Positions 1,998 to 27,513 of a DNA stretch of 33,744 bases are shown in pieces. Every line of letters starts with the position of its first letter. The first letter of the stretch is position 1. The stretch spans positions 1 through 33,744 of the forward strand of contig JAOPZA010000065.1 in the NCBI GenBank assembly GCA_025964325.1, written 5' to 3'. The DNA is from Conexibacter sp. (GTDB taxonomy: Bacteria > Actinomycetota > Thermoleophilia > Solirubrobacterales > Solirubrobacteraceae). The translations under genes and the position numbers were made by a program. Under the pieces are notes generated by a model that saw nothing but the letters and a program-made list of their open reading frames with translations, did not search any database and had not been told where the DNA came from.

Positions 1998-3173
1998 ATG
2001 TCGGTTTCAACCCGGGCTCGCTGGCGCTGCCTCGTGGCCGGATGCGCGGCTGCCGGTCTGGCCCTGTCCGTATCCGCTTGTGGCAGTTCCTCGCCCACCT
2101 CGAGCGGGAGCTCGGGCAGCACCGCGAGCACCGCGTCGACCGGCTCCGGCTCGGGCGCCGACGTCGCGGCGGCCGCCGCCGCCGTCAAGAAGGCCGAGCA
2201 GGCGCCGACGCGGATCGGCGTCGCCGAGCCGCTGAAGTCCGCGCCCCCGAAGGGCAAGACCTTCGTCTGGCTGCAGTGCAACTTCACGCAGTGCACGCAG
2301 ATCGGCGATGGCGTCAAGGCGGCGGCCCAGGCGATCGGCTGGAACTTCAAGGTCATCCCCTACAAGTCCGAGGATCCCGCCACGCTCGTGTCGGGCTTCA
2401 GACAGGCGCTCTCGGCCGACAATCCGACCGCCGTCGGCCTCTCGGGCATCCCCGTCGACGTCTGGTCGAGCGTGCTGCCGGCCTACAAGCAGGCGGGCGT
2501 CCCGATCGTGGCGAGCTACGTCGGCCCGACCCCGATCGGCGATCCGATCATCGCGAACGTGTCGGGGCCCGAGGCGAAGAAGGCGGAGAGCGTTCCGCTC
2601 ACCAACTGGCTCGTCGCGGACTCGCACGGCAAGGGCCACGTCCTCCTGCAGCGGGCCGACGATTTCACGATCTACAAGAGCGGCGACGACATCTTCGAGG
2701 CCGACGTGAAGCGGCTCTGCCCCGGCTGCCAGGTGACCAACCTCGCGCAGACGATCCCCGACGTGCAGGGCGGCAAGACGGTTCCGGCGATCGTCTCGGC
2801 GCTGAAGCGCGACCCCAGCATCGACTACGTGTTCACGAGCAACGGCTCGTTCATCCCGGGACTGCCCGCCGCGCTGAAGGCGGCCGGCGTGGCGAATCGC
2901 GTGAAGATCTTCGGCTTCGACCCGACGGTCGAGAACGTCGCGGCGGTGAAGAGCGGGACCGAGCAGGCCTTCACGCCGTCGGCGCAGTCCTATGCCGGCT
3001 GGCTGATCATGGACGCGACGCTGCGGCACCTGCAGTCGATCCCGTTGCCGGCCGGCTACGGCGAGACGCCGGTCCAGCTGCTGACGAAGGACGCCGACTT
3101 CACGGTGACGGGCGACTACCCGCAGCCCGTCGGCTATCAGGATCAGTTCAAGCAGCTCTGGAAGGTCAAGTAG
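1998..3173 (+). CDS. ABC transporter substrate-binding lipoprotein (sugar-type, Peripla_BP family)
   Basis: This 391-residue protein begins with a lipoprotein signal peptide ending in the lipobox VSAC, with C28 as the lipidated residue, followed by a Ser/Gly/Thr-rich tether to about residue 55. The rest is a two-lobed type I periplasmic binding protein of the RbsB/Peripla_BP_4 kind. The segment near SNGSFIPGLPAALKAAG and a later GFDPTVENVAAVKSGT block are typical of the family. It should capture the substrate outside the membrane and deliver it to the permease at 4746. The ATG is preceded by GGAGG and the gene ends 4 bases before the ATPase. This class is best known for sugars, but in catabolic clusters it also serves other small molecules; the ligand here is unknown. 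Confidence 0.88.
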   Translation: MSVSTRARWRCLVAGCAAAGLALSVSACGSSSPTSSGSSGSTASTASTGSGSGADVAAAAAAVKKAEQAPTRIGVAEPLKSAPPKGKTFVWLQCNFTQCTQIGDGVKAAAQAIGWNFKVIPYKSEDPATLVSGFRQALSADNPTAVGLSGIPVDVWSSVLPAYKQAGVPIVASYVGPTPIGDPIIANVSGPEAKKAESVPLTNWLVADSHGKGHVLLQRADDFTIYKSGDDIFEADVKRLCPGCQVTNLAQTIPDVQGGKTVPAIVSALKRDPSIDYVFTSNGSFIPGLPAALKAAGVANRVKIFGFDPTVENVAAVKSGTEQAFTPSAQSYAGWLIMDATLRHLQSIPLPAGYGETPVQLLTKDADFTVTGDYPQPVGYQDQFKQLWKVK

Positions 3174-3177
3174 CCCG

Positions 3178-4749
3178 ATGCCGGATCAGACGCAGGAGCG
3201 GCCGCGCGAGCGCGCGGCCGTTCCCCCGGCACTCGCGGGACGGAGCCTCAGCAAGGGCTTCGCGGGCGTGCTCGCCCTCGACGCCGTGGACCTGACGATC
3301 GAGGCCGGCGAGGTGCACGCGCTGCTGGGCGAGAACGGCTCCGGCAAGTCGACCCTGATCAAGCTCCTGTCGGGGTACCACCGTGCGGAGGGATCGACGG
3401 AGGTACACGTCGGCGGTGCGTCGATGACGCTCGGCTCGCCCCGCTCCTCACACGCGCTCGGATGCCGCTTCGTCCACCAGGACCTCGGCCTCGTCGACGC
3501 CGCCACGATCGCCGACAACCTCTGCCTCGGCGCCGGCTTCCCGCTGCGGTGGGGCACGATCCGGGCGCGCGAGCTGCGCCGTCGCGCCCGCGGCGACCTC
3601 GCTCGGGTCGGCGTCGAGCTCGATCCCGCGCGGCTCGTCGGCGAGCTGACGCCCGCGATGAAGACCGGGATCGCGGTCGCGAGAGCGCTCGCGAGCCACG
3701 GGGGAGATCCCGTCAAGCTGCTGGTCCTCGACGAGCCGACCGCGACGCTGCCCGACGACGAGGTGAACGACCTGCTCGGCATCGTCGAGCGGGTCGCGGC
3801 GAGCGGCGTCGGCGTGCTCTACGTCACGCATCGGATCGACGAGGTCTTCCGCATCGCCGACAACGTGACGGTCCTGCGCGACGGCCGCAAGGTGACGACC
3901 CGCCCGACCGCCTCGCTCGATCGCAGAGAGCTGATCAACCTGCTCGTAGGCAGCGAGTTCGACGAGACGCAGGCGGCGTCGGAGGCGCTCGCGCCGTCCG
4001 CCGCCGACGCGCTCCTCCATGTCGAGACGCTCGACGCCGGTCCGGTGCGGGCGGCCTCCTTCGAGGTGGCGGCCGGAGAGGTCGTCGGCATCGCCGGCAT
4101 CACCGGCTCCGGGCGCGAGACGATCCTGGGCGCGCTCTTCGGCGCGAACCCGCGCGAGGCCGGCACCGTGCTCGTCGGCGAGCAGCCGGTTCCCGCGGCC
4201 CGCCCGGCCGCGGCGATGGAGGTCGGCGTGGCGTACCTGCCGCCGGATCGCCCGAAGCTCGGAGCGCTGATGGAGCTGAGCGCGCGCGAGAACCTCTCAC
4301 TCGCCGACCTGCGTCCGTTCTGGCGCCGCATGCGGCTCCAGCGGCGGGCGGAGGCGAGCGAGACGCGCGCGTGGTTCGACCGGCTCTCGATCCGCCCGCT
4401 GGACGGATCCGAGCGCCGCCTCGCCACCTTCAGCGGCGGCAACCAGCAGAAGCTGCTGTTCGCGAAGTGGCTCCGGCGCAGACCGCGCGTGTTCCTCCTC
4501 GACGAGCCGACGCAGGGCGTCGACATCGCGGCCAAGCGGGAGCTTCACCGTCAGCTGCTGCTGGCCGCCGCCGACGGCGCCGCAGTGGTCGTCAGCTCGT
4601 CCGACATCGACGAGCTGGCGGTGCTCTGCCACCGCGTGCTCGTCCTGCGCGACGGACGGATCGTCGCGAACTTGACCGGTGACCGCGTGTCGGTGGATCG
4701 CATCGCGCGCGAGTGCCTCAACGCAAGCGGAAAGGTCATCGCGGCATGA
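3178..4749 (+). CDS. ABC transporter double ATP-binding protein (RbsA/MglA type)
   Basis: This 523-residue protein has two fused nucleotide-binding domains. The first has a full Walker A (GENGSGKST, about residue 50) and Walker B (LLVLDEPTATLP), but a poor signature motif reading ELTPAMKTGIAVARAL where LS.(G/A)QQQ is usual. The second has the degenerate Walker A of this family (ITGSGRETILGALFG), an intact signature FSGGNQQK, and Walker B VFLLDEPTQGVD. One competent and one weakened site is normal for RbsA-like proteins, although the first signature is more divergent than usual. It powers import with the lipoprotein and permease. The gene overlaps the permease start as ATGA. Confidence 0.92.
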   Translation: MPDQTQERPRERAAVPPALAGRSLSKGFAGVLALDAVDLTIEAGEVHALLGENGSGKSTLIKLLSGYHRAEGSTEVHVGGASMTLGSPRSSHALGCRFVHQDLGLVDAATIADNLCLGAGFPLRWGTIRARELRRRARGDLARVGVELDPARLVGELTPAMKTGIAVARALASHGGDPVKLLVLDEPTATLPDDEVNDLLGIVERVAASGVGVLYVTHRIDEVFRIADNVTVLRDGRKVTTRPTASLDRRELINLLVGSEFDETQAASEALAPSAADALLHVETLDAGPVRAASFEVAAGEVVGIAGITGSGRETILGALFGANPREAGTVLVGEQPVPAARPAAAMEVGVAYLPPDRPKLGALMELSARENLSLADLRPFWRRMRLQRRAEASETRAWFDRLSIRPLDGSERRLATFSGGNQQKLLFAKWLRRRPRVFLLDEPTQGVDIAAKRELHRQLLLAAADGAAVVVSSSDIDELAVLCHRVLVLRDGRIVANLTGDRVSVDRIARECLNASGKVIAA

Positions 4750-5840
4750 GCGCAGCACACGGAAGCCGGCGTCCGCTGCAGCGGACGTCCCGGCGGACGC
4801 TCAACTTCGGATTCGACCGGTTCAGCGGCCTCTACCTGTGGGCGCTGTTCATCCTCGTCTTCGGGATCTGGGTCCCGAACGCCTTCCTCACGACCGACAC
4901 CCTGCACTCGGTCGCCTCCTCGCAGGCGATCTCCGCGATGGTCGCGCTGGCCGTGCTGGCGCCGCTGGCGGCGGGGGTCTACGACCTCTCGGTCGGGGCC
5001 ACGGCCAACCTGACGGCGATCGTGGTCGCCGTCCTGCAGGCCCACCACCACAGCATCGGGACCGCGATCGCCGTCGCGATCGCCACCGGCGTGGCGGTCG
5101 GCGTGATCAACGGCTTCCTCGTCGTCAAGCTGCAGATCAGCTCGTTCATCGCCACGCTCGGGATGGCGACCGTCCTCGCGGCGGTGCAGTCGATCGTCAG
5201 CGGGCAGCAGCAGCCGGCGCCCCCGACGGCGTCGAGCTGGCTGAACCTGACGCAGAGCACGGTCGGCGGCTTCCAGGTCGTCGTGGTCTACCTCGTGGTG
5301 CTCGCCGTGATCTTCTGGTGGGTCCTGGCCCACACGCCGGCCGGGCGCTACATCGACGCCGTCGGCGCGAACGCCGAGGCCGCGCGCCTGTCGGGCGTGA
5401 GCGTCGGGAAGTGGCGCTGGCTCTCGCTCGTCTGCTCGGGAGCGATCAGCGGCCTCGCCGGCGTCCTCTACTGCTCGCTCAACGGCCCGTCGCTGACCTT
5501 CGGGACGGCGCTGCTGCTGCCCGCGTACGCCGCCGTGTTCCTCGGCTCGACCCAGCTGAAGCCCGGGCGCTTCAACGTCTGGGGCACGCTGATCGCGGTC
5601 TACGTGCTCGCCACGGGCGTGCAGGGCCTGCAATTCGTCACCGGCGTGCAGTGGCTCAACGACATGTTCAACGGCGTCGCCCTGCTGGCCGCCGTCGCCT
5701 TCGCCGGCTGGCGTCAGCGCAAGTCGCTGAGCCGGCGCTTTCGCAGAAGCACGGGTCGCTCCGACGAGCCCGACGCCACCCCGACCGAACCGGACCAGTC
5801 GCCGTCGGGCGCCGCCACGAGCCAGGTGGCGAGCCGATGA
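4746..5840 (+). CDS. ABC transporter permease (RbsC type, BPD_transp_2)
   Basis: This 364-residue integral membrane protein has about eight to ten hydrophobic segments. The conserved VYDLSVGA element (near residue 80) matches the DLSVGS motif of ribose-type permeases, and a later GANAEAARLSGVSVGKW loop is the usual ATPase-coupling region. It forms the membrane channel of the importer. The ATG overlaps the ATPase stop (ATGA), indicating translational coupling. The C-terminus carries a hydrophilic tail rich in Arg, Ser, Thr and Pro. The next gene starts 21 bases later with its own AGGAGG. Confidence 0.9.
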   Translation: MSAAHGSRRPLQRTSRRTLNFGFDRFSGLYLWALFILVFGIWVPNAFLTTDTLHSVASSQAISAMVALAVLAPLAAGVYDLSVGATANLTAIVVAVLQAHHHSIGTAIAVAIATGVAVGVINGFLVVKLQISSFIATLGMATVLAAVQSIVSGQQQPAPPTASSWLNLTQSTVGGFQVVVVYLVVLAVIFWWVLAHTPAGRYIDAVGANAEAARLSGVSVGKWRWLSLVCSGAISGLAGVLYCSLNGPSLTFGTALLLPAYAAVFLGSTQLKPGRFNVWGTLIAVYVLATGVQGLQFVTGVQWLNDMFNGVALLAAVAFAGWRQRKSLSRRFRRSTGRSDEPDATPTEPDQSPSGAATSQVASR

Positions 5841-5861
5841 CGCGGATTCAGGAGGATCACC

Positions 5862-7310
5862 ATGGCCGTTAGCAGCACCGTCGAGCGCGACAGCCTGTAC
5901 ATCGGCGGCGAGTGGGTGAGCCCTGCCTCGGATCGCCGCTTCGAGGTCGTGAACGCGACAACCGAGGAGGTCTTCGGCAGCGTGCCGGAGGGCGTGGAGG
6001 CCGACATCGACCGCGCCGTCGCGGCAGCCCGCCGGGCGGTCGACGAGGACGGCTGGGCGACGGCCGAGCCATCCGAGCGGGCCGCGGTGCTCGGCCGCTT
6101 CGCCGACGCGGTCGAGCGGCGCGGGAGCGAGCTGGCGCAGACGGTCAGCCGCGAGAACGGCATGCCGCTGAGCCTCTCGGAGCAGTTCGAGGCGGGCTAC
6201 TCGGTCGCGCTGCTGCGCTACTACGCCGGTCTCGCGGCGGCCCTGGAGGTGGAGGAGCGTCGTCCCTCGCCGCTCGGCTTCGATTCGCTCGTCCGGCGCG
6301 AGCCGCTCGGCGTCGCGGCCGGGATCGTCCCCTGGAACTTCCCCGTCGTGCTCTCGATGACGAAGATCGCGCCGGCGCTCGCGGCCGGCTGCGCGATCGT
6401 GCTGAAGCCATCGCCCGGCACGCCGCTCGACTCCTACGTGATCGCCGAGGCGGCCGAGGAGGCCGGCGTCCCCGCGGGCGTGCTCAACTGGGTCCCGGGC
6501 GGACGCGAGATCGGCCGCCACCTCGTCGCCCACGCGGGGATCGACAAGGTCGCCTTCACGGGCTCGACCGAGGCCGGACGGGAGGTCGGGGCGACGTGCG
6601 GTCGCCTGCTGCGTCCGTGCAGCCTCGAGCTGGGCGGCAAGTCCGCGGCCGTCATCCTCGACGACGCCGACGTCGACGAGGTCCTCCAGGGCCTCGCGTT
6701 CGCGTCGCTCGCGAACAACGGCCAGAACTGCGCGGCGAGCACGCGGATCCTGGCGCCCGCGAGCCGCTACGACGAGATCGTCGCGGCGCTGACGGACTTC
6801 TGCTCCGATCTGCGGATCGGCGACCCGCTCGACCCCGCGACGCAGATCGGGCCGCTCGCCTCGCGCGAGCATCGCGAGCGCGTCGAGGGCTATATCGAGA
6901 CGGGGCGGGGCGAGGGTCGCATCACGACCGGCGGCGGCCGGCCGCCCGGCGCGGGCTGGTTCGTCGAGCCGACCGTCTTCGCCGACGTCGGCAACGACGC
7001 GCGGATCGCGCGCGAGGAGATCTTCGGCCCGGTGCTGGTCGTGATCCGCTACGCGGACGACGACGACGCGGTCAGGATCGCCAACGACTCGGACTACGGG
7101 CTCGGCGGCACGGTCTGGTCGCGGGACGGCGAGCGCGCCCGCGCCGTCGCCCGCCGGATCGTCAGCGGCACGGTCGGCGTCAATGGCTACGTGCTCGACC
7201 TGAACGCCCCGTTCGGCGGCGTGAAGGACAGCGGCATCGGCCGCGAGTACGGGCCCGAGGCGATGGCCGGCTACCAGCGCCTGAAGTCGATCTACCTGCC
7301 GGCCGGGTAG
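5862..7310 (+). CDS. NAD(P)-dependent aldehyde dehydrogenase
   Basis: This 482-residue protein is full length for the ALDH superfamily. It has the VPWNFP cofactor-binding segment, the general base E256 in LELGGKS and the nucleophile C290 in NGQNCAAS, 34 residues apart as expected. The EEIFGPVL motif and the C-terminal GGVKDSGIGREYG segment are also present. It should oxidise an aldehyde to the acid, most likely the product of the GMC alcohol oxidoreductase at 10231; that acid could then be activated by a CoA ligase. A strong AGGAGG precedes the ATG. The exact aldehyde is unknown. Confidence 0.93.
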   Translation: MAVSSTVERDSLYIGGEWVSPASDRRFEVVNATTEEVFGSVPEGVEADIDRAVAAARRAVDEDGWATAEPSERAAVLGRFADAVERRGSELAQTVSRENGMPLSLSEQFEAGYSVALLRYYAGLAAALEVEERRPSPLGFDSLVRREPLGVAAGIVPWNFPVVLSMTKIAPALAAGCAIVLKPSPGTPLDSYVIAEAAEEAGVPAGVLNWVPGGREIGRHLVAHAGIDKVAFTGSTEAGREVGATCGRLLRPCSLELGGKSAAVILDDADVDEVLQGLAFASLANNGQNCAASTRILAPASRYDEIVAALTDFCSDLRIGDPLDPATQIGPLASREHRERVEGYIETGRGEGRITTGGGRPPGAGWFVEPTVFADVGNDARIAREEIFGPVLVVIRYADDDDAVRIANDSDYGLGGTVWSRDGERARAVARRIVSGTVGVNGYVLDLNAPFGGVKDSGIGREYGPEAMAGYQRLKSIYLPAG

Positions 7311-7314
7311 CGGG

Positions 7315-8025
7315 ATGATCAAGCTCTTCGCGCTCCTGCCCAAGCGGGAGGACGTCTCGCTCGAGCAGTTCCACGAGCACTGGCGCACGACGCACCGGGA
7401 CTACGCGCTGCGGATGCGGTCGCTGCGTCGCTACGTCCAGGGCCACCGCCTCGCGTCCGCGCCCGACGGCTTCCCGCCGGCGCCGTTCGAGGGCTTCGAG
7501 GCCGCGCCCTACCCGGGGATCGCCGAGGCCTGGTTCGAGGACCTGGCGGCGGCCGCGGGCATGGGCGAGGACCCCGACTACACCGAGGGCGCCATGCTCG
7601 ACGAGCCGAACTTCATGGACGTCGAGCGCAGCCGCTTCCTGCTGACGGAGGAGAACGTCGTCGTGGAGGGGCCGCCGGTCGAGCGCGACGCCGCGGCGAT
7701 CAAGGCGCTCCTGCTCCTGCGGCGGCGCCCGGACATGACGCCGGCGCAGTTCCGTCGCCGCTGGCACGAGCAGCACGCGCCGCTCGCCGCGCAGATCCCC
7801 GGCCTGACCCGGTACGTGCAGTCCCACGCCGCGCCCGAGACCTACGCGCCGGGGACGGCGCCGCCGTTCGACGGCGTCGGCGAGCTGTGGTGGCCGGACC
7901 TCGACGCCTGCCGGCAGGCGTGGAGCACGCCGGAGATGCAGCGGGTGCTCGCGGACGCGGGCGAGTTCGTCGGTCCCGGATCGTCGGCCGCGCTGGTCGA
8001 GGAGCTCCGGGTCATCTGGCCCTGA
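7315..8025 (+). CDS. Tandem EthD-domain protein
   Basis: This 236-residue protein is made of two EthD-type ferredoxin-like repeats. The first (about 1-105) opens MIKLFALLPKREDVSLEQFH with an EHWRTTH element. The second (about 128-236) repeats the pattern as ALLLLRRRPDMTPAQFRRRW with EQHAP and a LTRYVQSH strand. EthD proteins are small dimeric alpha/beta-barrel proteins first found beside a P450 needed for ethyl tert-butyl ether degradation; some relatives are enzymes (decarboxylases, cyclases). Here two domains are fused in one chain, which could fold as an internal dimer. It lies 4 bases after the aldehyde dehydrogenase and 12 bases before a P450. The function is not established. Confidence 0.8.
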   Translation: MIKLFALLPKREDVSLEQFHEHWRTTHRDYALRMRSLRRYVQGHRLASAPDGFPPAPFEGFEAAPYPGIAEAWFEDLAAAAGMGEDPDYTEGAMLDEPNFMDVERSRFLLTEENVVVEGPPVERDAAAIKALLLLRRRPDMTPAQFRRRWHEQHAPLAAQIPGLTRYVQSHAAPETYAPGTAPPFDGVGELWWPDLDACRQAWSTPEMQRVLADAGEFVGPGSSAALVEELRVIWP

Positions 8026-8037
8026 ACGAGGAGAGCA

Positions 8038-9276
8038 ATGTCGGACACGAGCGACACCTACTGGAACCCCGACCTCTCGGCTGGCGAGCACGACACGCCC
8101 GAGCACTGGGCCGCCCACTTCGACGGGATGGACCCGACGCTCTCGCGCGGCCGCTTCTTCCGCGTCTCGGCGGAGATGCAGCAGCGCTGCCCGGTGGCGC
8201 ACAGCGATCGCTACGAGGACGGCGGCTTCTGGGTGCTGTCGCGCTATCGCGACATCGAGCAGGTCCACAAGGATCCGGCGACGTTCTCGAGCTACCCGGT
8301 CGTCTGCCCGTCGTTCGGGAACCTGCGGCCGATGATCCCGATCGAGTCCGACCCGCCGCTCCACAAGCCGTACAGAGCGCTGCTGTCGGACTTCTTCTCG
8401 CGCAGAGCGCAGCTCGCGAAGGAGCCGCTGTTCCGCCGCTTCGCGGTCGAGCAGCTGGACCGGTTCGTCGCGCGGGGCGAGTGCGACATCACCGAGGAGC
8501 TCTGCCTGCCGTTCGTCCTGCGGGCGCTGATCGACATGCTCGGCGTGCCGGACGAGGACCGCGAGCTGATGGGCGACATCGGCATGCGCCTCGTGCGGAT
8601 GGACACGAGCCGGGGCAACCCGGCGGTCGAGCTCTACGGCTACTTCCAGAAGCTCGTCGCCCACCGCCGCGAGCATCCGGGGGACGACGTCGTCAGTCTC
8701 ATCACCCACGCCGAGCTCGACGGCGAGCCGCTCTCGGAGTTCGAGATCCTCGACTACTGCATGGTGATCCTGCCGGCCGGCTTCGAGACGACCGCCAGCT
8801 CGATGAGCTACACGTTCCTGTTCCTCGCCGAAAACCCGGAGCTGGCCGACCGCCTGCGCGCCGATCCCGCGCTGATCGCCTCGGCGGTGGACGAGATGAT
8901 CCGCTACGCGACGCCCGTCCGCGCGCTCGCCCGCACCGTGATGAGCGAGGTCGAGGTCGGCGGGCAGACGATGGCGCGCGGCGACCGCGTCGTGCTCAAC
9001 TGGGCCGCCGCCAACCGCGACCCCGCGTACTTCCCCGAGCCCGACACGCTCGACGTCGAGCGCAAGCCGAACCGGCACATGGGCTTCGGCATGGGCGTCC
9101 ACCTCTGCACCGGCATCCACATGGCCCGGATCGAGATCCGCGTGGCGCTCGAGGAGGCGCTCAAGCGGATGGACAACATCCGCCTGGCCGATCCCGCCGC
9201 CGTCGTCGAGCGGCCCGGCAGCACGTGGGGCCTCGACGTCCTGCCGCTGCGCTTCGACCCGGTGGCGGTCTCGTGA
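8038..9276 (+). CDS. Cytochrome P450 monooxygenase
   Basis: This 412-residue soluble bacterial P450 has the I-helix motif AGFETT (residues 247-252), the K-helix EMIR, and the heme-binding loop FGMGVHLCTGIHMAR with C357 as thiolate ligand. It should hydroxylate a hydrophobic substrate using electrons from a ferredoxin. The only ferredoxin and ferredoxin reductase in the window lie about 17 kb downstream (26130, 26329). The start ATG follows GAGGAG. Its stop overlaps the GTG start of the next gene. The acid/threonine pair in the I helix looks normal, so an active oxygenase is expected; the substrate is unknown. Confidence 0.94.
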   Translation: MSDTSDTYWNPDLSAGEHDTPEHWAAHFDGMDPTLSRGRFFRVSAEMQQRCPVAHSDRYEDGGFWVLSRYRDIEQVHKDPATFSSYPVVCPSFGNLRPMIPIESDPPLHKPYRALLSDFFSRRAQLAKEPLFRRFAVEQLDRFVARGECDITEELCLPFVLRALIDMLGVPDEDRELMGDIGMRLVRMDTSRGNPAVELYGYFQKLVAHRREHPGDDVVSLITHAELDGEPLSEFEILDYCMVILPAGFETTASSMSYTFLFLAENPELADRLRADPALIASAVDEMIRYATPVRALARTVMSEVEVGGQTMARGDRVVLNWAAANRDPAYFPEPDTLDVERKPNRHMGFGMGVHLCTGIHMARIEIRVALEEALKRMDNIRLADPAAVVERPGSTWGLDVLPLRFDPVAVS

Positions 9277-10217
9277 GCCTCGTCCTGGCCGGGCTCTACC
9301 CGAGCGCGCTGCTGCCGCTGCGCGAGGACCTCTCGATCGCCGAGCGCGACTACGTCGTGCAGATCCAGCACCTCGCGCGGGCCGGCGCCGGCGTCGGCGG
9401 CGTGATCGTCAACGACCCGGCCGGCGACGCGGCCGGGCTGAGCCGCGAGGAGCGGGCACGCGTGCTCGAGCTGGCGGCCGCGGCGGCGCCGGAGGGCTTC
9501 CCCGTGATCGCCGGCATCCAGGCCGAATCGGTCGAGCGCGTCGTCGAGCTGCTCGACGACGCCCGCGCGCACCACGCCGACGCCGCCCTCGTCTTCCCGC
9601 CGACGGATCCGCGGCTCACGGCCGAGCTGACAAGCGCCGTGGACGCGCCCCGCAGGCTGTTCGCCGAGCTCGCCGCGGCGACCGACCTGCCGCTCGTCGT
9701 CGCGCAGACGGCGGCCGAAGGGGGCGCCTCGTACCCGACGCAGGCGCTCGTCGAGCTGGCGCGCCTGGAACGCGTCGTCGCGATCGTCGACGCAATCGGC
9801 GACGCGGGGCGCCATGCGGAGCAGTACCGGGCCGTGGATCGCGCCGTGCCGCTGCTCGTCGCCGTCGACGGACCCGAGCTGCGCGAGCTGCTGCTGGCCG
9901 GCGCGGAGGGCGCCGCGCTCGGCATCAGCAACATCGCGCCGCGCGCCTGGGGCGCCTTCGTGGCCGATCTGCTGGCCGGTCGCCGGGACCGTTCCGACCG
10001 CTGGTACGCCGAGGTCGGCGAGCCACTGCTGCGGGCGCTCGGCGGGAGCCGGGCGCGGGCCTCCGGGAGCGGGGCGGCCTGGGTGAAGCACGGCCTCGTG
10101 CTGCTCGGACAGCACGCCAACAGCCGGGTGCGGCCGCCGCAGCCGGAGCTCAGCGAAGAGGATGGAGCAGCGGTTCGCGAGGCGCTCGCCGTCGCCGGTC
10201 TGCTGCCCGGACACTAG
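9273..10217 (+). CDS. DapA-fold (dihydrodipicolinate synthase family) protein lacking the catalytic lysine
   Basis: This 314-residue protein has the length and pattern of the DapA/N-acetylneuraminate lyase family, including the ending in which GQHANSRVRPPQPELSEE matches the family's G...VR.P...LS.E. Family enzymes form a Schiff base on a lysine in an I-K-D-S-x-G-D context. Here the aligned segment is I-V-D-A-I-G-D, so the lysine is V172. The usual Tyr-Asn of the YN.P motif is A144-Q145, and the GTTGE loop is replaced by DPAGD. Retro-aldol chemistry by the normal route is therefore unlikely. It may be a binding or scaffolding protein, or an enzyme with a new mechanism. GTG start overlapping the P450 stop (GTGA). 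Confidence 0.8.
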   Translation: MSLVLAGLYPSALLPLREDLSIAERDYVVQIQHLARAGAGVGGVIVNDPAGDAAGLSREERARVLELAAAAAPEGFPVIAGIQAESVERVVELLDDARAHHADAALVFPPTDPRLTAELTSAVDAPRRLFAELAAATDLPLVVAQTAAEGGASYPTQALVELARLERVVAIVDAIGDAGRHAEQYRAVDRAVPLLVAVDGPELRELLLAGAEGAALGISNIAPRAWGAFVADLLAGRRDRSDRWYAEVGEPLLRALGGSRARASGSGAAWVKHGLVLLGQHANSRVRPPQPELSEEDGAAVREALAVAGLLPGH

Positions 10218-10230
10218 AAGGAGCGTTCGC

Positions 10231-11796
10231 ATGACCGCACCGCAGTTCGACTACGTGATCGTCGGGGCCGGATCAGCCGGCTGCGTCCTCGCCAACCGCC
10301 TCTCGGAGGATCCGGAGTGCACGGTGCTCCTGCTCGAGGCCGGCCCGCTCGACGAGCGGCCCGAGATCGCCAATCCGCTCGAGTGGCCGCTGCTGCTCGG
10401 CTCGGAGGTCGACTGGGACTACGCGACGACGCCGCAGGCCGGGACCGCGGGTCGCGTCCACCCGTGGCCGCGCGGCAGAGTCCTCGGCGGCAGCGGCTGC
10501 CTGAACGGCATGGTCTACATGCGCGGCGCCCGCTGGGACTACGACGGCTGGGCGATGCGCGGCAACGTCGGCTGGGACTTCGACTCGGTCACGGCCGCGT
10601 ACCGGGAGCTCGAGAGCTTCGCGGGCGGCGATCCCGCCTACCGCGGGAGCGACGGGCCGCTGCCGATCACCGTCGTCGAGGACGTGAACCCGCTCACGAC
10701 GGCGTTCCTGGAGGCGTGCGCCCAGCGCGGCCATCGCGAGGCGCTCGACTTCAACGGCGCCGACGCGGAGGGCTATGGGCTCCATCAGCTCAACGCCGCG
10801 AACGGACGCCGTCAGAGCTCGGCCGTCGCGTTCGTGCACCCGGCGCTCTCCCGTCCGAACCTCACGCTCGTGACCGAGGCCGTCGTGCATGAGCTGGCGC
10901 TCGACGCCGCCCACCGGCGCGTCGACGCGGTCGTCTACGTGCGCGACGGCGAGCGCCACCGGGTCGGCGTGGGCCGGGAGGCGATCGTCGCCGCCGGCGC
11001 GATCGACTCGCCGAAGCTGCTGATGCTCTCCGGCGTCGGCGCGGCCGACGAGCTCGGCCGCGCCGGCATCGAGGTGAAGGCCGAGCTCCCCGGCGTCGGT
11101 CGGAACCTGCACGACCACCTCGCGATCACGGTGACCTACGAGGCGAAGCAGGACGTGGCGCCCGGTCGCAACCAGAACAGCGAGGCCGCCCTCTTCTGCC
11201 GCAGCGATCCCGCGCTGCCCCGCTACGACCTCCAGCTCGCGTTCCTCCACATCCCCTACCTGGCTCCCGGCTTCACCTGCGGGCCGTTCGGCTACACGCT
11301 CTTCGCCGGGCTGCTGAAGCCGCTCAGCCGGGGTCGCGTGATGCTGCGCTCGGCGGACCCCGCCGAGCCGCCGCTGATGGATCCCGCCTACCTGCGGGAG
11401 GAGGCCGACTACCAGGGCCTCGCGCGAGCGCTCGAGATCGCCCGCGACCTCGGCGCCGCGCCGGCGTTCGACGCCTGGCGCGGTCGCGCGGTCGCGCCCG
11501 CGCCCGACGTGCGCACGCCGGAGCAGATCCGTCGCTACATCGGCGCCGCCGCGACGACGTTCTACCACCCGGTCGGTACGTGCAGGATGGGCTTGCAGGA
11601 CGACTGCGTCGTCGATCCCCAGCTGCGCGTCCACGGGTTCGAGAACCTGCGCGTGGCGGACGCGTCGGTCGTCCCGGAGATCATGTCCGGCAACACGAAC
11701 GCGGCCGCGATGATGATCGGGTGGCGCGCCGCCGACTTCATCCGCGGCCACGATCGCGAGCTCTCCGCGGCGCGGCTCGACGCGGTGGTCTCGTGA
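10231..11796 (+). CDS. GMC-family FAD-dependent alcohol oxidoreductase (choline dehydrogenase-like)
   Basis: This 521-residue protein has the N-terminal FAD-binding motif VGAGSAGCVLANRLSE and a distal LLLEAGP. The GMC signature GGSGCLNGMVYMRG follows, and the C-terminal catalytic region has H446 in HPVGTCRMG and the N488/N490 pair in SGNTNAAAMM. GMC dehydrogenases oxidise primary alcohols to aldehydes, passing electrons to a quinone or oxygen. With the aldehyde dehydrogenase at 5862 it could convert a hydroxylated substrate to an acid. The ATG at 10231 follows AAGGAG; an upstream in-frame start would run into the preceding gene and is not favoured. The amidase GTG overlaps its stop. Confidence 0.92.
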   Translation: MTAPQFDYVIVGAGSAGCVLANRLSEDPECTVLLLEAGPLDERPEIANPLEWPLLLGSEVDWDYATTPQAGTAGRVHPWPRGRVLGGSGCLNGMVYMRGARWDYDGWAMRGNVGWDFDSVTAAYRELESFAGGDPAYRGSDGPLPITVVEDVNPLTTAFLEACAQRGHREALDFNGADAEGYGLHQLNAANGRRQSSAVAFVHPALSRPNLTLVTEAVVHELALDAAHRRVDAVVYVRDGERHRVGVGREAIVAAGAIDSPKLLMLSGVGAADELGRAGIEVKAELPGVGRNLHDHLAITVTYEAKQDVAPGRNQNSEAALFCRSDPALPRYDLQLAFLHIPYLAPGFTCGPFGYTLFAGLLKPLSRGRVMLRSADPAEPPLMDPAYLREEADYQGLARALEIARDLGAAPAFDAWRGRAVAPAPDVRTPEQIRRYIGAAATTFYHPVGTCRMGLQDDCVVDPQLRVHGFENLRVADASVVPEIMSGNTNAAAMMIGWRAADFIRGHDRELSAARLDAVVS

Positions 11797-13202
11797 CGGG
11801 CGACCGGACGATCGCCGCGGCGGCGGCGGCGCTGCGCGCCGGGAGCGTCACGAGCGTTGCCCTGACGGAGGCGTCGATCGCGGCCGCCGACCAGCTCGAC
11901 GAGCGGCTCGGCACCTACCTGGCGCGCTCGGACGAGGCCGCGCTGGCGGCCGCCGCCCGCGCCGACGCCGAGCTCGCCGCGGGGCTCGATCGCGGGCCTC
12001 TGCACGGCATCCCGCTCGCGATCAAGGACACGATCGCGACCGCGGACGGGCCGACGACGGCGCAGAGCGCGATCCTCGACCCCGCCTGGGGCGAGCAGGG
12101 CGACGCGCCCGTCGTGGCGCGCCTGCGCGCCGGCGGGGCGCCGATCCTCGGCAAGACGACGACGATGGAGTTCGCGATCGGCGTCCCCGATCCGTCCGCG
12201 CCGTTCCCCGTCCCCCGCAACCCGTGGGACGTCGAGCGGTGGGCCGGAGGATCGAGCTCGGGGACCGGCAGCGGGCTCGCATCCGGCCTCTTCCTCGGCG
12301 GCCTCGGGACGGACACCGCCGGCAGCGTCCGGCTGCCGGCCGCCTTCTGCGGGATCAGCGGCCTCAAGCCGACCTTCGGGCGGGTGCCGAAGAACGGGTG
12401 CGTGCCGCTCGGCTTCAGCTACGACACGGTCGGGCCGATGGCGCGCAGCGCCCGCGACTGCGCGACGCTCCTCGGCGTCATCGCCGGCCCGGACCCCGGC
12501 GACGCCTGCTCGGTCGACCTCGCCGTTCCCGACTACGTCGCCGCCCTGAGCGGCTCGCTCGACGGCGTCCGCATCGGCGTCGATCGCCTCGCCGGCGTCT
12601 CGCCGGTCAGCGATCCCGCGCTGTCCGCCTGTCTCGACGCGGCGCTGGAGGCGCTCGCCGACGCCGGCGCGAGCCTCACCGACGTGCAGATCCCGCTCTA
12701 CTCCGAGCTCGTGACGACGACGATGGTCGGCGAGCTGGCCGAGGCCTTCGCGTACCACCGTGGCGACCTCCAGACCCGCTGGGAGGAGTACGGCGCCGGG
12801 ACGCGCATGGTGATCGCGTCCGGAGCGCTGTTGCCCGCCGCCGACTACGTGCAGGCCCAGCGGGTGCGGCGCGTCGGCCAGAAGGCGATCGCCGCGCTGT
12901 TCGAGACGGTCGACCTCGTGATCACGCCGACCGCGTCGGTCGCCGCCGGCCGGCTCGACCAGCTCGCGTTCGGCGACATCATCGACGCGATCCACACGCC
13001 GCTGTGGAACGCCGTCGGCAATCCGGCCCTCTCGGTCCCGATCGGGCTGACCGCGGACGGCCTGCCGCTCGCGATGCAGATCGCCGGAGCGCCGTTCGAC
13101 GAGGCCGGCGTGCTCCGCGCCGGAGACGCCTACCAGCTGCGGACCGACTGGCACGTGCGCCGGCCGCCCCTGCACGCGAGCAACGTGGCCGGCGCGGCGT
13201 GA
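11793..13202 (+). CDS. Amidase-signature family hydrolase
   Basis: This 469-residue protein has the complete Ser-cisSer-Lys triad of the amidase signature family. K78 lies in AIKDT, the cis-serine is probably S154 in GGSSSG, and the nucleophile is S178 in GTDTAGSVRLPA, 24 residues later as in fatty-acid amide hydrolase. A GLKPTFGRVP segment follows, as usual. It hydrolyses an amide (or ester) bond; the substrate could be an amide entering the pathway or a small carboxamide. The GTG start overlaps the GMC stop (GTGA). The next gene encodes a tiny AtzG-like protein, recalling the AtzE-AtzG hydrolase complex. Confidence 0.92.
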   Translation: MTGDRTIAAAAAALRAGSVTSVALTEASIAAADQLDERLGTYLARSDEAALAAAARADAELAAGLDRGPLHGIPLAIKDTIATADGPTTAQSAILDPAWGEQGDAPVVARLRAGGAPILGKTTTMEFAIGVPDPSAPFPVPRNPWDVERWAGGSSSGTGSGLASGLFLGGLGTDTAGSVRLPAAFCGISGLKPTFGRVPKNGCVPLGFSYDTVGPMARSARDCATLLGVIAGPDPGDACSVDLAVPDYVAALSGSLDGVRIGVDRLAGVSPVSDPALSACLDAALEALADAGASLTDVQIPLYSELVTTTMVGELAEAFAYHRGDLQTRWEEYGAGTRMVIASGALLPAADYVQAQRVRRVGQKAIAALFETVDLVITPTASVAAGRLDQLAFGDIIDAIHTPLWNAVGNPALSVPIGLTADGLPLAMQIAGAPFDEAGVLRAGDAYQLRTDWHVRRPPLHASNVAGAA

Positions 13203-13252: not shown

Positions 13253-13465
13253 ATGGACGACGCGACCCAGATCGTGAAGATCCTCCTGCGGCAGGCGCGG
13301 ATCGGCGCCTCGCCGGAGGAGCTGGACGCCCTCGCCGCGGGGTATCCCGCCATGCGGGCCGGGGTAGAGGCGCTGTACGCCGTCGCGGGCGCGCGCTACG
13401 AGGAGCCGGGACTCGTCTTCGGCGCCCGGCCGCAGGCCGCTCGCACAGACCCGGCCGGCGATTGA
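13253..13465 (+). CDS. Small AtzG/GatC-like putative amidase partner (70 aa)
   Basis: This short gene has a clear GAAGGAG ribosome site 5 bases before its ATG. The 70-residue product is mostly helical in appearance. The core, about residues 3-45, has a short helix, an ASPEELDALAAGYPAMRAGV segment and an ALYAV helix. This resembles DUF4089/AtzG proteins, which wrap around an amidase-signature enzyme in the manner of GatC around GatA. The resemblance is by pattern and context, not by strong residue identity. It lies 50 bases after the amidase. The last 20 residues look disordered. Its stop codon overlaps the -35 of the next promoter. Confidence 0.62.
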   Translation: MDDATQIVKILLRQARIGASPEELDALAAGYPAMRAGVEALYAVAGARYEEPGLVFGARPQAARTDPAGD

Positions 13466-13489
13466 CAAAGAACTCTACTGCCCTATTAT
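13462..13489 (+). promoter_or_regulatory. Promoter of the thiolase operon, giving a probable leaderless transcript
   Basis: TTGACA (13462-13467) matches the -35 consensus fully, and TATTAT (13484-13489) is a good -10 at 16-base spacing. Only six bases separate the -10 from the ATG at 13496, where transcription should begin. No ribosome site precedes that ATG. The -35 overlaps the TGA stop (13463-13465) of the small upstream gene. Confidence 0.72.
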
Positions 13490-17646: not shown

Positions 17647-18416
17647 GCGCGACGGACGTGGTCCGCTGGAGCGAGCAGGACGCCGTCTTCGTCGTGCGTC
17701 TCGGACGGCCGCCGGTCAACGCCCTCGGCCCGCCGCTGATCGACGGGCTCGACGCCGCGCTCGACGAGTTCGAGGCGCGCGAGGGCCGCGTCCTCGTCCT
17801 CGTCTCCGACGTGCCCGGCTTCTTCGCGGCGGGGGCGGACATCAAGGCGATGGTCGGCCTCGACCTCGAGGCGTTCGCCGCCTACGGTCGCCGGCTGCGG
17901 GCCGCGGTCGAGCGGATCCCCGCGCTCGAGCGGCCGTCGATCGCCGCCGTCGAGGGACGCGCGCTCGGCGGCGGGATGGAGCTGGCGCTGGCGTGCACGC
18001 TGCGCGTCGGCGGCGCCGACTGCCGCATGGGGCTGCCGGAGGCGAAGATCGGGCTCGTCCCGAGCGCCGGCGCGACCCAGCGGCTGCCGCGCTACGTCGG
18101 CCGCGGCCGCGCGCTCGAGCTGATGCTCACGGGCCGCGAGATCGACGCCGACGAGGCCGGCCGGATCGGCTTGATCGATCGCGCCGCGGCAGCCGGCGAG
18201 GCGGAGGCCGACGCGGTCGCGCTCGCCCGGCAGCTGCGCGGGCTCTCCGCCCCCGCGCTGAGGGACATCGTCCGCGGCGTCGACGACGCCTACGAGCTGC
18301 CGCTCGCGGCCGGGCTCACGCGCGAGGCCGCGCGCGTCGACGCGCTCTACTGCGGGCCCGACGCGAGAGAGGGCCTGCGGGCGTTCGTCGAGAAGCGCCC
18401 GCCGGAGTTCTCGTGA
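17643..18416 (+). CDS. Enoyl-CoA hydratase/isomerase (crotonase family)
   Basis: This 257-residue crotonase carries both hydratase glutamates, E113 in ALGGGMELALAC and E133 in GLPEAKIGLVPSAGATQRLPR, spaced 20 residues apart as in mammalian enoyl-CoA hydratase. The oxyanion-hole segment FFAAGADIKAM is also present. It should add water to a 2-enoyl-CoA, giving the (S)-3-hydroxyacyl-CoA. In an alicyclic pathway it would take the role of BadK, feeding the BadH-like dehydrogenase at 22727. The GTG start overlaps the stop of the dehydratase gene. The C-terminus ends in the family's EKRPPEF. Confidence 0.92.
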   Translation: MSATDVVRWSEQDAVFVVRLGRPPVNALGPPLIDGLDAALDEFEAREGRVLVLVSDVPGFFAAGADIKAMVGLDLEAFAAYGRRLRAAVERIPALERPSIAAVEGRALGGGMELALACTLRVGGADCRMGLPEAKIGLVPSAGATQRLPRYVGRGRALELMLTGREIDADEAGRIGLIDRAAAAGEAEADAVALARQLRGLSAPALRDIVRGVDDAYELPLAAGLTREAARVDALYCGPDAREGLRAFVEKRPPEFS

Positions 18417-18445
18417 GCGACCTCCATCCCCGGAAAGGAACTGCG

Positions 18446-19648
18446 ATGACGAACGACACCATCAGCGACGACGGGATCGACATCGCCAAGGCCCGTCAGC
18501 GGCACCCGAAGGCGATCGAGATGGCGCGCCGCGGGCTCGAGCTCGTCCGCACCAAGACGACCGACCAGGCCCCGGCGGTCCACGAGCAGCCGGTCGGCGT
18601 CTACCTCGACCCGGCGCGCTTCGAGACCGAGGTCGACGTGCTGTTCCACCAGCGCGCGCTGTTCGTCGCGCTCAGCGTCGAGCTGCCGCAGCCGGGCGCG
18701 TTCAAGACGCTCGAGATCCCGCGCTTCCCGCTGATCGTCGTCCGCGGACAGGACGGGGTCGTGCGCGCGTTCCTCAACACCTGCCGTCACCGCGGCAGCT
18801 CGCTCGTGCAGGGCACCGGCCTCACGCGCGCCTTCGTCTGCAAGTACCACGGCTGGGCCTACGACCTCGACGGCAAGCTGCGCAAGGTCCGCGCGGCGGA
18901 CAACTTCGGCGAGCCCGGCTGTCCCGGCCTGATCGAGGTCGCGGCGGCCGAGAGATACGGCATGGTCTTCGCGCGGCCGCGCTCGCTCGAGCGGGACCCG
19001 TCGCCGATCGACGTCGACGAGGTGCTCGGCGACGAGCTCGCCGGGCAGCTCGAGGGCTGGCATCTGAACCTCTCCGAGAAGGTGCACGCGGCGACGGTCG
19101 AGACCGCCTCGAACTGGAAGCTCGCGGTCGACACCTACCTCGAGACCTACCACTTCGCGACGCTGCACAAGACGACGGTCGCGAAGACCAACTTCTCCGA
19201 CCACGCGCCCTTCGACGTCTACGGACCGCACTCGCTGACCGCGTTCCTGGACCGCAGAATCGAGCGCCTCGCCGACCAGCCGGAGGACCAGTGGCGTCCG
19301 CTCAAGCACGTGCAGATGGTCTACGTGCTCTTCCCGAACACGATCATGACCGTGATGCAAGACCACGTCGAGTACTCGATGATCCTGCCCGGCAGGACCC
19401 ATGCCGAGAACAGCATGGAGCACCTGTACTTCAGCTTCCCCGACTTCCACGCCGAGGACGTCCACCGCAGCCGCTTCGACAACACGCAGTGGATCCTCGC
19501 GGAGGAGGACTGCCCGATGGCGGAGGAGATGTTCCGCAACGTCGAGGCCGGCGTCCTGCAGACGATCCGCTTCGGGCGCAACGAGCCCGGGCTCCAGCAC
19601 CAGTACGGCGGCTACGAGGCCGCGCTCGCGGAGGCGGCTCGCCGATGA
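18446..19648 (+). CDS. Rieske-type non-heme iron oxygenase, alpha subunit
   Basis: This 400-residue protein has an N-terminal Rieske [2Fe-2S] domain with ligands C113/H115 (in CRHRG) and C132/H135 (in CKYHGW). The catalytic domain has the DTYLETYHFATLH motif, where H236 and H241 bind mononuclear iron; the third, acidic ligand probably lies near DNTQWILAEED. It should hydroxylate or dihydroxylate its substrate, or remove a methyl group, using electrons from a ferredoxin/reductase. No beta subunit is encoded nearby, which suggests a homotrimeric alpha-only enzyme. AAGGAA precedes the ATG. The kinase gene overlaps its stop. The substrate is unknown. Confidence 0.93.
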   Translation: MTNDTISDDGIDIAKARQRHPKAIEMARRGLELVRTKTTDQAPAVHEQPVGVYLDPARFETEVDVLFHQRALFVALSVELPQPGAFKTLEIPRFPLIVVRGQDGVVRAFLNTCRHRGSSLVQGTGLTRAFVCKYHGWAYDLDGKLRKVRAADNFGEPGCPGLIEVAAAERYGMVFARPRSLERDPSPIDVDEVLGDELAGQLEGWHLNLSEKVHAATVETASNWKLAVDTYLETYHFATLHKTTVAKTNFSDHAPFDVYGPHSLTAFLDRRIERLADQPEDQWRPLKHVQMVYVLFPNTIMTVMQDHVEYSMILPGRTHAENSMEHLYFSFPDFHAEDVHRSRFDNTQWILAEEDCPMAEEMFRNVEAGVLQTIRFGRNEPGLQHQYGGYEAALAEAARR

Positions 19649-25192: not shown

Positions 25193-26133
25193 TCCGCATC
25201 GGCGCCCAGTACCTCGGCGGCTCGCTGTCGCCGAAGACGTTCGCCGTCGCGGTCGAGGAGGCGGGCTTCGACTCGGTCTGGTGCGGTGACCACGTGAGCC
25301 ACTACGTCGACGGCATCGCCACGCTCGGCTGCTACGCCGGCGCCACCGAGACGATCGAGATCGGCACCAACGTCCTGGTCGCGCCGCTGCGACCCGCGGT
25401 CGTCGCCGCGAAGGCCCTCGCCACCGTGGCCGACATCGCCGGGCCGCAGCGGCTCGTCGCCGGCATCGGGGTCGGCGGGGACTTCCCGGCCGAGATCGCC
25501 GCCGTCGGCGCCGAGATGAGACAGCGCGGCGCCTACACCGACGAGGCGCTCGAGCTGATCCGCCTGCTGTGGAGCGGCGAGCCGATCAGCTACGACGGGC
25601 GCTGGACCCAGCTCGCGGACTACCGCATCGAGCCGGCGCCGGATCCGGCTCCGCGCGTCTGGATCGGGGGCCGCGCCGATGCCGCGCTGCGCCGCGCGGT
25701 CCGCTCCGGCTCGGGCTACCTCGGCTACCTGCTGAGCCCCAGTGGGGTCGCCAAGCGCGCGGCGCGGATCGCCGAGCTGGCGCTCGAGCAGGGGCGCGCG
25801 CCGGCGGACCTCACGATCGCGTGCAACGTCTTCTTCGTGCCGGCGCGGACGGTCGACGAGGCGGTCGACGCGGCGATCGCGAACGGGATGAGCCTCCAGG
25901 GCCTGACGCCCGAGCTGGTCCGCTCGTTCTTCCTGCTCGGCGACGACGAGGCCTGCCTGGCCCGCATCCAGCAGTACGTCGACGCCGGCCTCGACCACCT
26001 GATCCTCGGCTGCGCTCCCGGCGGGGAGGACGAGCTGCGGACGTTCCTCGCCGCCGCGACCCGGCTGCTGCCCGAGATCCGCGCGCTGGTGCCCGCCGCC
26101 GCGACCACGACGACCGAAGGAGTCGGAACATGA
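25189..26133 (+). CDS. LLM-class flavin/F420-dependent oxidoreductase
   Basis: This 314-residue protein has the luciferase-like TIM-barrel pattern: an N-terminal GFDSVWCGDHVSHY segment (about 20-40), IEIGTNVLVAPLRP, RLVAGIGVGGDFPAEI, and a PRVWIGGRADAALRRA strand. In high-GC actinobacteria such proteins often use coenzyme F420, but FMN is also possible and the residues cannot decide. It may reduce a double bond or ketone, or act as a monooxygenase. The GTG start overlaps the ligase stop and its own stop overlaps the ferredoxin ATG, so all three are coupled. Confidence 0.85.
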   Translation: MIRIGAQYLGGSLSPKTFAVAVEEAGFDSVWCGDHVSHYVDGIATLGCYAGATETIEIGTNVLVAPLRPAVVAAKALATVADIAGPQRLVAGIGVGGDFPAEIAAVGAEMRQRGAYTDEALELIRLLWSGEPISYDGRWTQLADYRIEPAPDPAPRVWIGGRADAALRRAVRSGSGYLGYLLSPSGVAKRAARIAELALEQGRAPADLTIACNVFFVPARTVDEAVDAAIANGMSLQGLTPELVRSFFLLGDDEACLARIQQYVDAGLDHLILGCAPGGEDELRTFLAAATRLLPEIRALVPAAATTTTEGVGT

Positions 26134-26324
26134 AGGTCATCGTCGACCTCGACGTGTGCGAGGCCTATGGGCAGTGCGTGCTGCAGGCGCCGCAGGTGTT
26201 CGACCTCGGCGACGACGACGAGGTCGTGACCGTGCTCGACGCCGACCCCGACGACGCGCTGCGCGAGCGCGTGGAGGCGGCCGCCGACGCCTGCCCCGTC
26301 GATGCGATCAGGATCGCGGACTGA
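26130..26324 (+). CDS. [3Fe-4S] ferredoxin
   Basis: This 64-residue ferredoxin has three cysteines placed for a [3Fe-4S] cluster: C10 and C16 in CEAYGQC, and C55 in ACPVDAIRI. The fourth cysteine of a [4Fe-4S] site is missing. The protein is acidic, as is usual for P450 redox partners in actinobacteria. It most likely carries electrons from the reductase at 26329 to the P450 at 8038, and perhaps to the Rieske oxygenase at 18446. Its ATG overlaps the LLM stop (ATGA) and the reductase starts five bases after its own stop. Confidence 0.92.
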   Translation: MKVIVDLDVCEAYGQCVLQAPQVFDLGDDDEVVTVLDADPDDALRERVEAAADACPVDAIRIAD

Positions 26325-26328
26325 CGAG

Positions 26329-27513
26329 ATGCGACGGGTGGTCATCGTCGGGGGCGGCCTCGCCGGGCATCGCGCGGCGACGGCACTGCGCCGCCACGGC
26401 TTCGACGGCGAGCTGACGCTCGTCGGCGAGGAGCGCCACCGCCCGTACGACCGGCCGCCGCTCTCGAAGCAGCTGCTCGCCGGCGACGACGACCACCGGC
26501 GCTTCTACCCGACGGAGGAGCTGGAGCTGACCTGGTCGCTCGGCGAGCCTGCGGTCGGACTCGACCTCGCCGCGCGCGCGCTCCAGCTGGCCGGCGGGGG
26601 CCGGCTCCCCTTCGACGGCCTCGTGCTGGCGACCGGCCGCCGCGCCAGGACGTGGCCCGCGCGCCCTCAGCTGAGCGGCTTCCACACGCTCCGCACGCTC
26701 GACGACGCGTACGCCCTGCGCGACGCGGCGCTGCCCGGCCAGCGCGTGGCGATCGTCGGCGCCGGCTTCGTCGGCTGCGAGGTCGCCGCCACGCTGCGCG
26801 GTCGCGGCCTCGAGGACGTCACGTTGATCGACGTCGCCGCGCACCCGATGCCGGCGCTCGGCCCCGAGCTCGGACGCCACGCGGCACGCGTCCACGCCGA
26901 GCACGGCGTGCGCCTGCGGCTCGATCGTGCCGTCGCGTCGTTCGAGGGCCGCGACCGCGTCGAGGCGGTCCGGCTCCTCGACGGCGAGCGGATCGCGGCC
27001 GACGTCGTGCTGCTCGCGCTCGGCTCGGTCCCGAACAGCGAGTGGCTCGACGGCTCCGGCCTCGAGCTGTTCGCCGGCGCCGTCTGCTGCGACGAGCACT
27101 GCTTCGCCCTCGGCGCCGAGGACGTCGTGGCCGCCGGCGACATCGCGGCGTTCCCCTATCCCGGCGTGCCCGAGCCCGTCTGGGTCGAGCATTGGAGCAA
27201 CGCGCGCGAGATGGCCGAGCGGGCCGCCGTCAACCTGCTCGCGGCGCCGCGGGAGCGCCGCCCGTACGTGCCGATCCCGACCTTCTGGTCGAACCAGTAC
27301 GACCTGCAGATCAAGGCGGCCGGCCTGCTGCGCGCGGCGAACCGCTTCGTCACGGTGGAGGAGGACGCCGCGCGGCCCGCGCTCGTGATCGAGGCGTACC
27401 GCGACGACCAGCTCGTCGGCGCGATCGTCGTCAACCGCAATCGCGCCTTCGTCGACTACCAGCGGCGGCTCGGCCGCGAGCTCGAGGCGCGCGCGGCCGA
27501 GACGGTCTCGTGA
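26329..27513 (+). CDS. FAD-dependent NAD(P)H-ferredoxin reductase
   Basis: This 394-residue protein is of the putidaredoxin-reductase type. It has the FAD motif VIVGGGLAGHRAATALR at the start, a conserved YDRPPLSKQLL segment near residue 40, the NAD(P) motif VAIVGAGFVGCEVAATLRG near residue 145, and the AAGDIAAFP FAD-binding element. The C-terminal FWSNQYDLQIKAAG is typical. It should pass electrons from NAD(P)H to the adjacent ferredoxin. Its stop overlaps the GTG of the next gene. Confidence 0.94.
   Translation: MRRVVIVGGGLAGHRAATALRRHGFDGELTLVGEERHRPYDRPPLSKQLLAGDDDHRRFYPTEELELTWSLGEPAVGLDLAARALQLAGGGRLPFDGLVLATGRRARTWPARPQLSGFHTLRTLDDAYALRDAALPGQRVAIVGAGFVGCEVAATLRGRGLEDVTLIDVAAHPMPALGPELGRHAARVHAEHGVRLRLDRAVASFEGRDRVEAVRLLDGERIAADVVLLALGSVPNSEWLDGSGLELFAGAVCCDEHCFALGAEDVVAAGDIAAFPYPGVPEPVWVEHWSNAREMAERAAVNLLAAPRERRPYVPIPTFWSNQYDLQIKAAGLLRAANRFVTVEEDAARPALVIEAYRDDQLVGAIVVNRNRAFVDYQRRLGRELEARAAETVS

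Follow-up and report, generated by a model that had tools for sequence, protein, structure and literature searches.

A DHDPS-fold protein without the Schiff-base lysine in a P450/EthD/GMC operon of Conexibacter sp.

The class I aldolase chemistry of the dihydrodipicolinate synthase (DHDPS) superfamily requires a Schiff-base lysine. One paper assigns class I aldolase chemistry to this superfamily (PMC13398020), and another describes 'largely impaired activity' upon mutation of K161 of E. coli DHDPS (PMC3369909). Four described systems come closest to the protein analyzed here, which is termed Q. DapA (TIGR00674; structures 3flu, 3pud and 1dhp) is similar to Q in length and in its whole TIM barrel and C-terminal helical domain, with a VIA Z of about 39-40, but Q lacks the Schiff-base Lys, Tyr133, Thr44 and Thr45 and scores 64.9 bits against the TIGR00674 equivalog cut-off of 206.15. 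5-Dehydro-4-deoxyglucarate dehydratase (KdgD; NF002958 and TIGR03249) gives the best NCBIfam match of Q, but its score to NF002958 (67.6 bits) is below the cut-off of 278, and with 50.5 bits against 373.95 for TIGR03249, Q lies below every NCBIfam cut-off. The K161A mutant of E. coli DHDPS (3i7q) likewise has the DHDPS fold without the lysine, but it carries an engineered single change with the rest of the site intact. Finally, an unnamed clade of 'dihydrodipicolinate synthase family proteins' (L037, L005, L011, L003, L155 and others), termed the FQ/NG clade, shares with Q an N-x-x-x-G loop, Gln145 and the absence of Tyr-Asn, but differs from it by Lys172 and Glu52 in all 43 members examined and by an identity of at most about 34%.

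The window is the whole stretch of 33,744 nucleotides that was analyzed, and the features of Q and its operon are listed in Table 1. Q is a member of Pfam family PF00701 (DHDPS) with a score of 70.1 bits (E = 1.7e-19; cut-off 22.1). Its codon usage is similar to that of the operon (r = 0.974 against ten neighboring genes; GC3 0.93), and therefore Q is a real gene; a shadow ORF or a frame error is ruled out by this codon usage together with the full-length homology. Q contains a single Lys and no Cys. The same genome encodes three further PF00701 proteins, all with the Schiff-base Lys. Q is not the DapA of this genome, because a PF00701 protein with GTTGE, YN and VKQ (C33) scores 250 bits.

Table 1. 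Features of the Q gene, its active-site codons and its operon in the window
Feature	Position	Strand	Basis or remark
Sugar-type ABC substrate-binding protein (Peripla_BP_4)	1998..3173	+	family match
Sugar-type ABC ATPase	3178..4749	+	family match
ABC permease (BPD_transp_2)	4713..5840	+	family match
Aldehyde dehydrogenase (ALDH)	5862..7310	+	family match
Tandem EthD-domain protein	7315..8025	+	family match
Cytochrome P450	8038..9276	+	family match
Q, DHDPS/NAL-fold protein without Schiff-base Lys	9273..10217	+	314 aa, GTG start, TAG stop
D48-P-A-G-D52 at GTTGE loop	9414..9428, codons 48-52	+	alignment
Ala144-Gln145 at Tyr133-Asn134 (Phe-Gln in most of clade)	9702..9707, codons 144-145	+	alignment
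Val172 at Schiff-base Lys161	9786..9788, codon 172	+	alignment
K272, sole Lys of Q, C-terminal helical domain	10086..10088, codon 272	+	Lys in 43/43 clade members
GMC oxidoreductase	10231..11796	+	family match
Amidase	11793..13202	+	family match

The active-site residues of Q are placed by alignment to solved DHDPS and DapA relatives, in E. coli numbering. This alignment returns the same three replacements that had been reported in the initial annotation, those of the Schiff-base Lys, the Tyr-Asn pair and the GTTGE loop. P49, A50 and D52 of Q align with T44, T45 and the Glu of GTTGE, and the column of R138 of DHDPS is occupied by E149. Class I (Schiff-base) members have Lys at the K161 position and Tyr at the Y133 position, and Q has Val172 and Ala144 there. 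Because of Val172, the imine chemistry of the family has no usable lysine at its usual site in Q. A lysine from elsewhere in the chain, a possibility raised in the initial annotation, does not reach the active site. The sole Lys of Q, K272, is the conserved C-terminal Lys, and therefore no other Lys can form the imine.

The Schiff-base Lys is present in all 114 other rows of the alignment of relatives, in 10/10 plasmid homologues and in 29/29 non-window loci of an order-wide profile search (loci are given for 30 matches), three sets that overlap one another. The contig alignment scan keeps 80 of 246 confirmed relatives, and the survey of the lysine covers those that were read; a cousin lacking the Lys may exist among the others. 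Judged from these sequence comparisons, Q is a lone variant, with no orthologue in any collection searched. The highest identity to Q among the relatives searched is about 34% (L087). No orthologue is found in 232 genomes of the order at E ≤ 1e-20, a 396-genome sample of the phylum gives four other matches to Q at E ≤ 1e-18 that are just 27-33% identical, and the best match other than Q in a 399-genome sample of the class is at 1.6e-17. Two other classes, sampled with 39 and 27 genomes, yield nothing beyond the known matches. Single-protein scans of the genome contig and viral contig collections with Q give no match, and neither do the phages searched nor, at 1e-10, the plasmids searched; at a loose limit, two Thioclava plasmid records are 28% identical to Q. 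Two plasmid-labelled records, NZ_CP064203.1 and NZ_LT559118.1, are 3.97 and 11.85 Mb in size and are probably chromosomes in PLSDB. A natural DHDPS-family protein without the lysine is not found among the papers listed by searches of the open-licence PMC literature.

The structure of Q was predicted with AlphaFold from a 46-sequence alignment consisting of Q and 45 of the 114 relatives. The model has a pLDDT of 94.8 and a pTM of 0.92, and both Foldseek and VIA return DHDPS structures as its best matches; VIA aligns 294 residues with DHDPS 3flu at an rmsd of 1.6 and a Z of 40.5. The K161A structure 3i7q is also among the structural matches. Thus, Q is confidently predicted to have the DHDPS fold, as the initial annotation had proposed, and this prediction speaks to the fold and not to the function.

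The placement of Q was analyzed with a 49-row tree of Q, 38 of the 114 other rows and 10 plasmid proteins. An earlier tree also took 38 of the 114 other rows, and the first tree is a quick version. In the 49-row tree, Q joins the FQ group (16 rows) and the NG group (10 rows with L158) with support of 99/95. Its branch is the longest in the tree, at 2.26 changes per column where the median is 0.57. Q scores 146 bits with the NG HMM, 124 with FQ, 117 with YNN and 116 with DapA. AU tests keep other placements of Q, with DapA (p = 0.08), with YNN (p = 0.07) or with FQ alone (p = 0.09). By the tree and the HMM scores, Q fits best in the Lys-bearing FQ/NG clade, a placement that is favored but not proven, its position being unsure on so long a branch.

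The clade counts refer to 43 members, which are 33 of the 36 FQ rows (the near-twins L040, L052 and L077 are left out) and 10 NG rows (L006, a twin of L004, is left out, and L154b and L161 lie outside the clade). The loop of these proteins has the pattern N-x-[D/H]-[T/A]-G-E, and most of them have Phe-Gln at Tyr-Asn. Lys172 and Glu52 are found in 43/43 members, and Q has V172 and D52. Position 144 is Tyr in one, Phe in 40 and His in two; position 145 is Asn in none and Gln in 38; position 49 is Thr in none, Asp in 33 and His in 10, and GTTGE is found nowhere. Q retains N47, G51 and Q145 of the N-x-x-x-G loop and Gln145 pattern, which are present in 40/43, 40/43 and 38/43 members respectively. 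Because the clade keeps Lys in 43/43 but has Asn in 0/43, Tyr in 1/43 and GTTGE in 0/43, the Tyr-Asn and GTTGE differences look old and inherited from the Lys-bearing clade, and the changes from Lys to Val, Phe to Ala and Glu to Asp look private to Q, if the placement is right. The three changes thus probably did not arise together, and the earlier view of three elements changed at once does not agree with these counts, again depending on the placement.

The FQ group (L005, L011, L036-L051, L087, L111 and others) is widespread in archaea and bacteria, has the motifs VNVDTGEGPHL, LFQLQPALGG, IKEASFDAR and LTGNDNF, and retains the Lys with Phe-Gln or Phe-Thr at the Tyr-Asn position of DapA. None of six FQ/NG members scanned, L037 among them, exceeds any NCBIfam cut-off, and a close solved structure is not found for the three members searched; the top solved-structure sequence match of L037 is 1s5w, the engineered Y133F mutant of E. 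coli DHDPS. The FQ-clade neighborhoods, read as 10 proteins from five loci, vary in content (Gfo/Idh, DHO dehydrogenase, luciferase-like, LacI, solute-binding and other proteins) and indicate no function.

All genes at 1998-13202 are read from the same strand, and no gap between them exceeds 21 bases. The GTG start of Q lies inside the stop of the P450 gene, with GTGA shared at 9273-9276, which bears out the overlap of the two genes, and the GMC gene starts 13 bases after Q. The P450 sequence contains the heme-Cys motif. A 70-aa ORF without a Pfam match is located just past the amidase gene (13253-13465), and we take it to resemble the AtzG-type small partners of AtzE amidases. Sigma-70-like promoter matches are detected at 1792-1820 (10/12) before the gene for the ABC binding protein and at 13462-13489 (11/12) before the thiolase gene, which belongs to the next gene group; two such promoter-like pairs are seen against 0.3 expected. 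The downstream genes encode a thiolase, an enoyl-CoA hydratase, SDRs, a Rieske oxygenase (17993-19648), an acyl-CoA dehydrogenase, a ferredoxin, a ferredoxin reductase and an AMP-ligase. The ferredoxin and ferredoxin reductase genes (25569-27513) could serve either the P450 or the Rieske oxygenase. The whole region looks like a catabolic one for a hydrophobic compound.

The P450-EthD-Q arrangement is found in none of eight EthD-homologue regions of 9-17 kb, which contain no DHDPS homologue, and 12 P450-homologue loci (flanks of about 1.5 kb) contain none either. The ABC ATPase and permease accompany EthD in 4/8 of these regions (40-47% identity) and ALDH in 2/8, and within the order the closest relatives of the P450 share 35-42% identity with it. 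Because EthD recurs with the ABC ATPase and permease in 4/8 regions without a DHDPS homologue, Q and the P450 appear to have been added locally. Homologues with the same substitutions beside P450, EthD or GMC genes, which the initial annotation had envisaged, are not found in the regions and genomes searched. A Rhizobium plasmid (L155:1-7365) carries ALDH, ABC permease, binding protein, Lys-bearing NG-type and GMC genes, a composition like that of the window operon.

The leading reading, about as likely as not, is that Q is a folded protein that is dead for imine chemistry, is kept in the P450/EthD/GMC/ALDH operon and is repurposed for non-covalent binding or catalysis. The main alternative, which is possible but the less probable of the two, is that Q is a degenerating gene, derived from a redundant Lys-bearing FQ/NG-type enzyme, which has lost its catalytic residues and drifts while staying open in GC-rich, stop-poor DNA. 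Q is a singleton with the longest branch, as expected for decay. It retains 24 of 38 clade-conserved columns (63%), against 71% for the lowest of the 43 others, and its losses extend beyond the active site (G101H, P263A and R270W). The intact reading frame, on which the initial annotation based its argument against decay, is weak evidence because the 942 bases are likewise free of stops in frame 3 and in antisense frame 1. The hydrophobic core is the stronger argument for constraint. At 75 columns, 90% or more of the clade members have a hydrophobic residue. Q does so at 60 of these, a number reached by none of 10,000 shuffles (maximum 51), and eight other divergent members keep 84-100%. This retention indicates that the fold of Q was constrained through much of its divergence. 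Against decay are also the normal codon usage and GC3, the start that still overlaps the P450 stop, the proximity of the GMC gene and the neighbors that match their families over full length. Codon usage and the preserved core speak more strongly for long-lasting constraint than the open frame does. Repurposing and relaxed constraint are both compatible with these data on Q.

It is unlikely that Q carries out residual family chemistry as an aldolase, dehydratase or hydrolase without the lysine. K161A structures such as 3i7q retain the DHDPS fold, and some activity reportedly survives engineered mutation of K161 in E. coli DHDPS, but other catalytic residues are also gone from Q (Y133 to A, T44 to P and the R138 column to E149), and the operon shows no evident pyruvate-type pathway. 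Least probable is that Q descends from an ordinary DapA or a YNN-type dehydratase and lost the three elements independently. The AU tests allow this, and the SNIAP segment at 219-223, closer to DapA than to FQ, is consistent with it, but the tree support, the HMM scores and the Q145 and N47 typical of the FQ/NG clade speak against it.

For the repurposed protein, the favored course is that Q descends from the FQ/NG clade with Tyr-Asn and GTTGE already changed, would then have lost its imine (class I aldolase) chemistry, and persists, still folded, in a catabolic operon. The mouth of its barrel (the retained N47/G51/D52 loop, Q145 and D199) may still bind an oxygenated pathway intermediate non-covalently, in a pathway in which oxygenation by the P450 would precede oxidation by GMC and ALDH. 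Q may thus be a pseudoenzyme for binding or scaffolding, a partner protein of the P450, or a lyase or isomerase with weak acid/base catalysis. The neighborhood is the only hint to its substrate or partner. That Q is a natural DHDPS-superfamily enzyme without imine catalysis, acting non-covalently on an intermediate of P450, GMC and ALDH, is the more specific proposal and is doubtful.

Q is less dramatic than it first appeared, since two of the three unusual elements are probably common to a wider Lys-bearing clade. This clade is the larger by-product of the analysis: its Lys-bearing proteins, found in bacteria and archaea, almost all lack the Tyr that is regarded as catalytic in DHDPS. If non-covalent action of Q is true, it would represent a shift of mechanism inside a superfamily for which the Schiff-base lysine is the usual defining feature. 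A folded natural member without this lysine would test the capacity of the scaffold beyond covalent catalysis.
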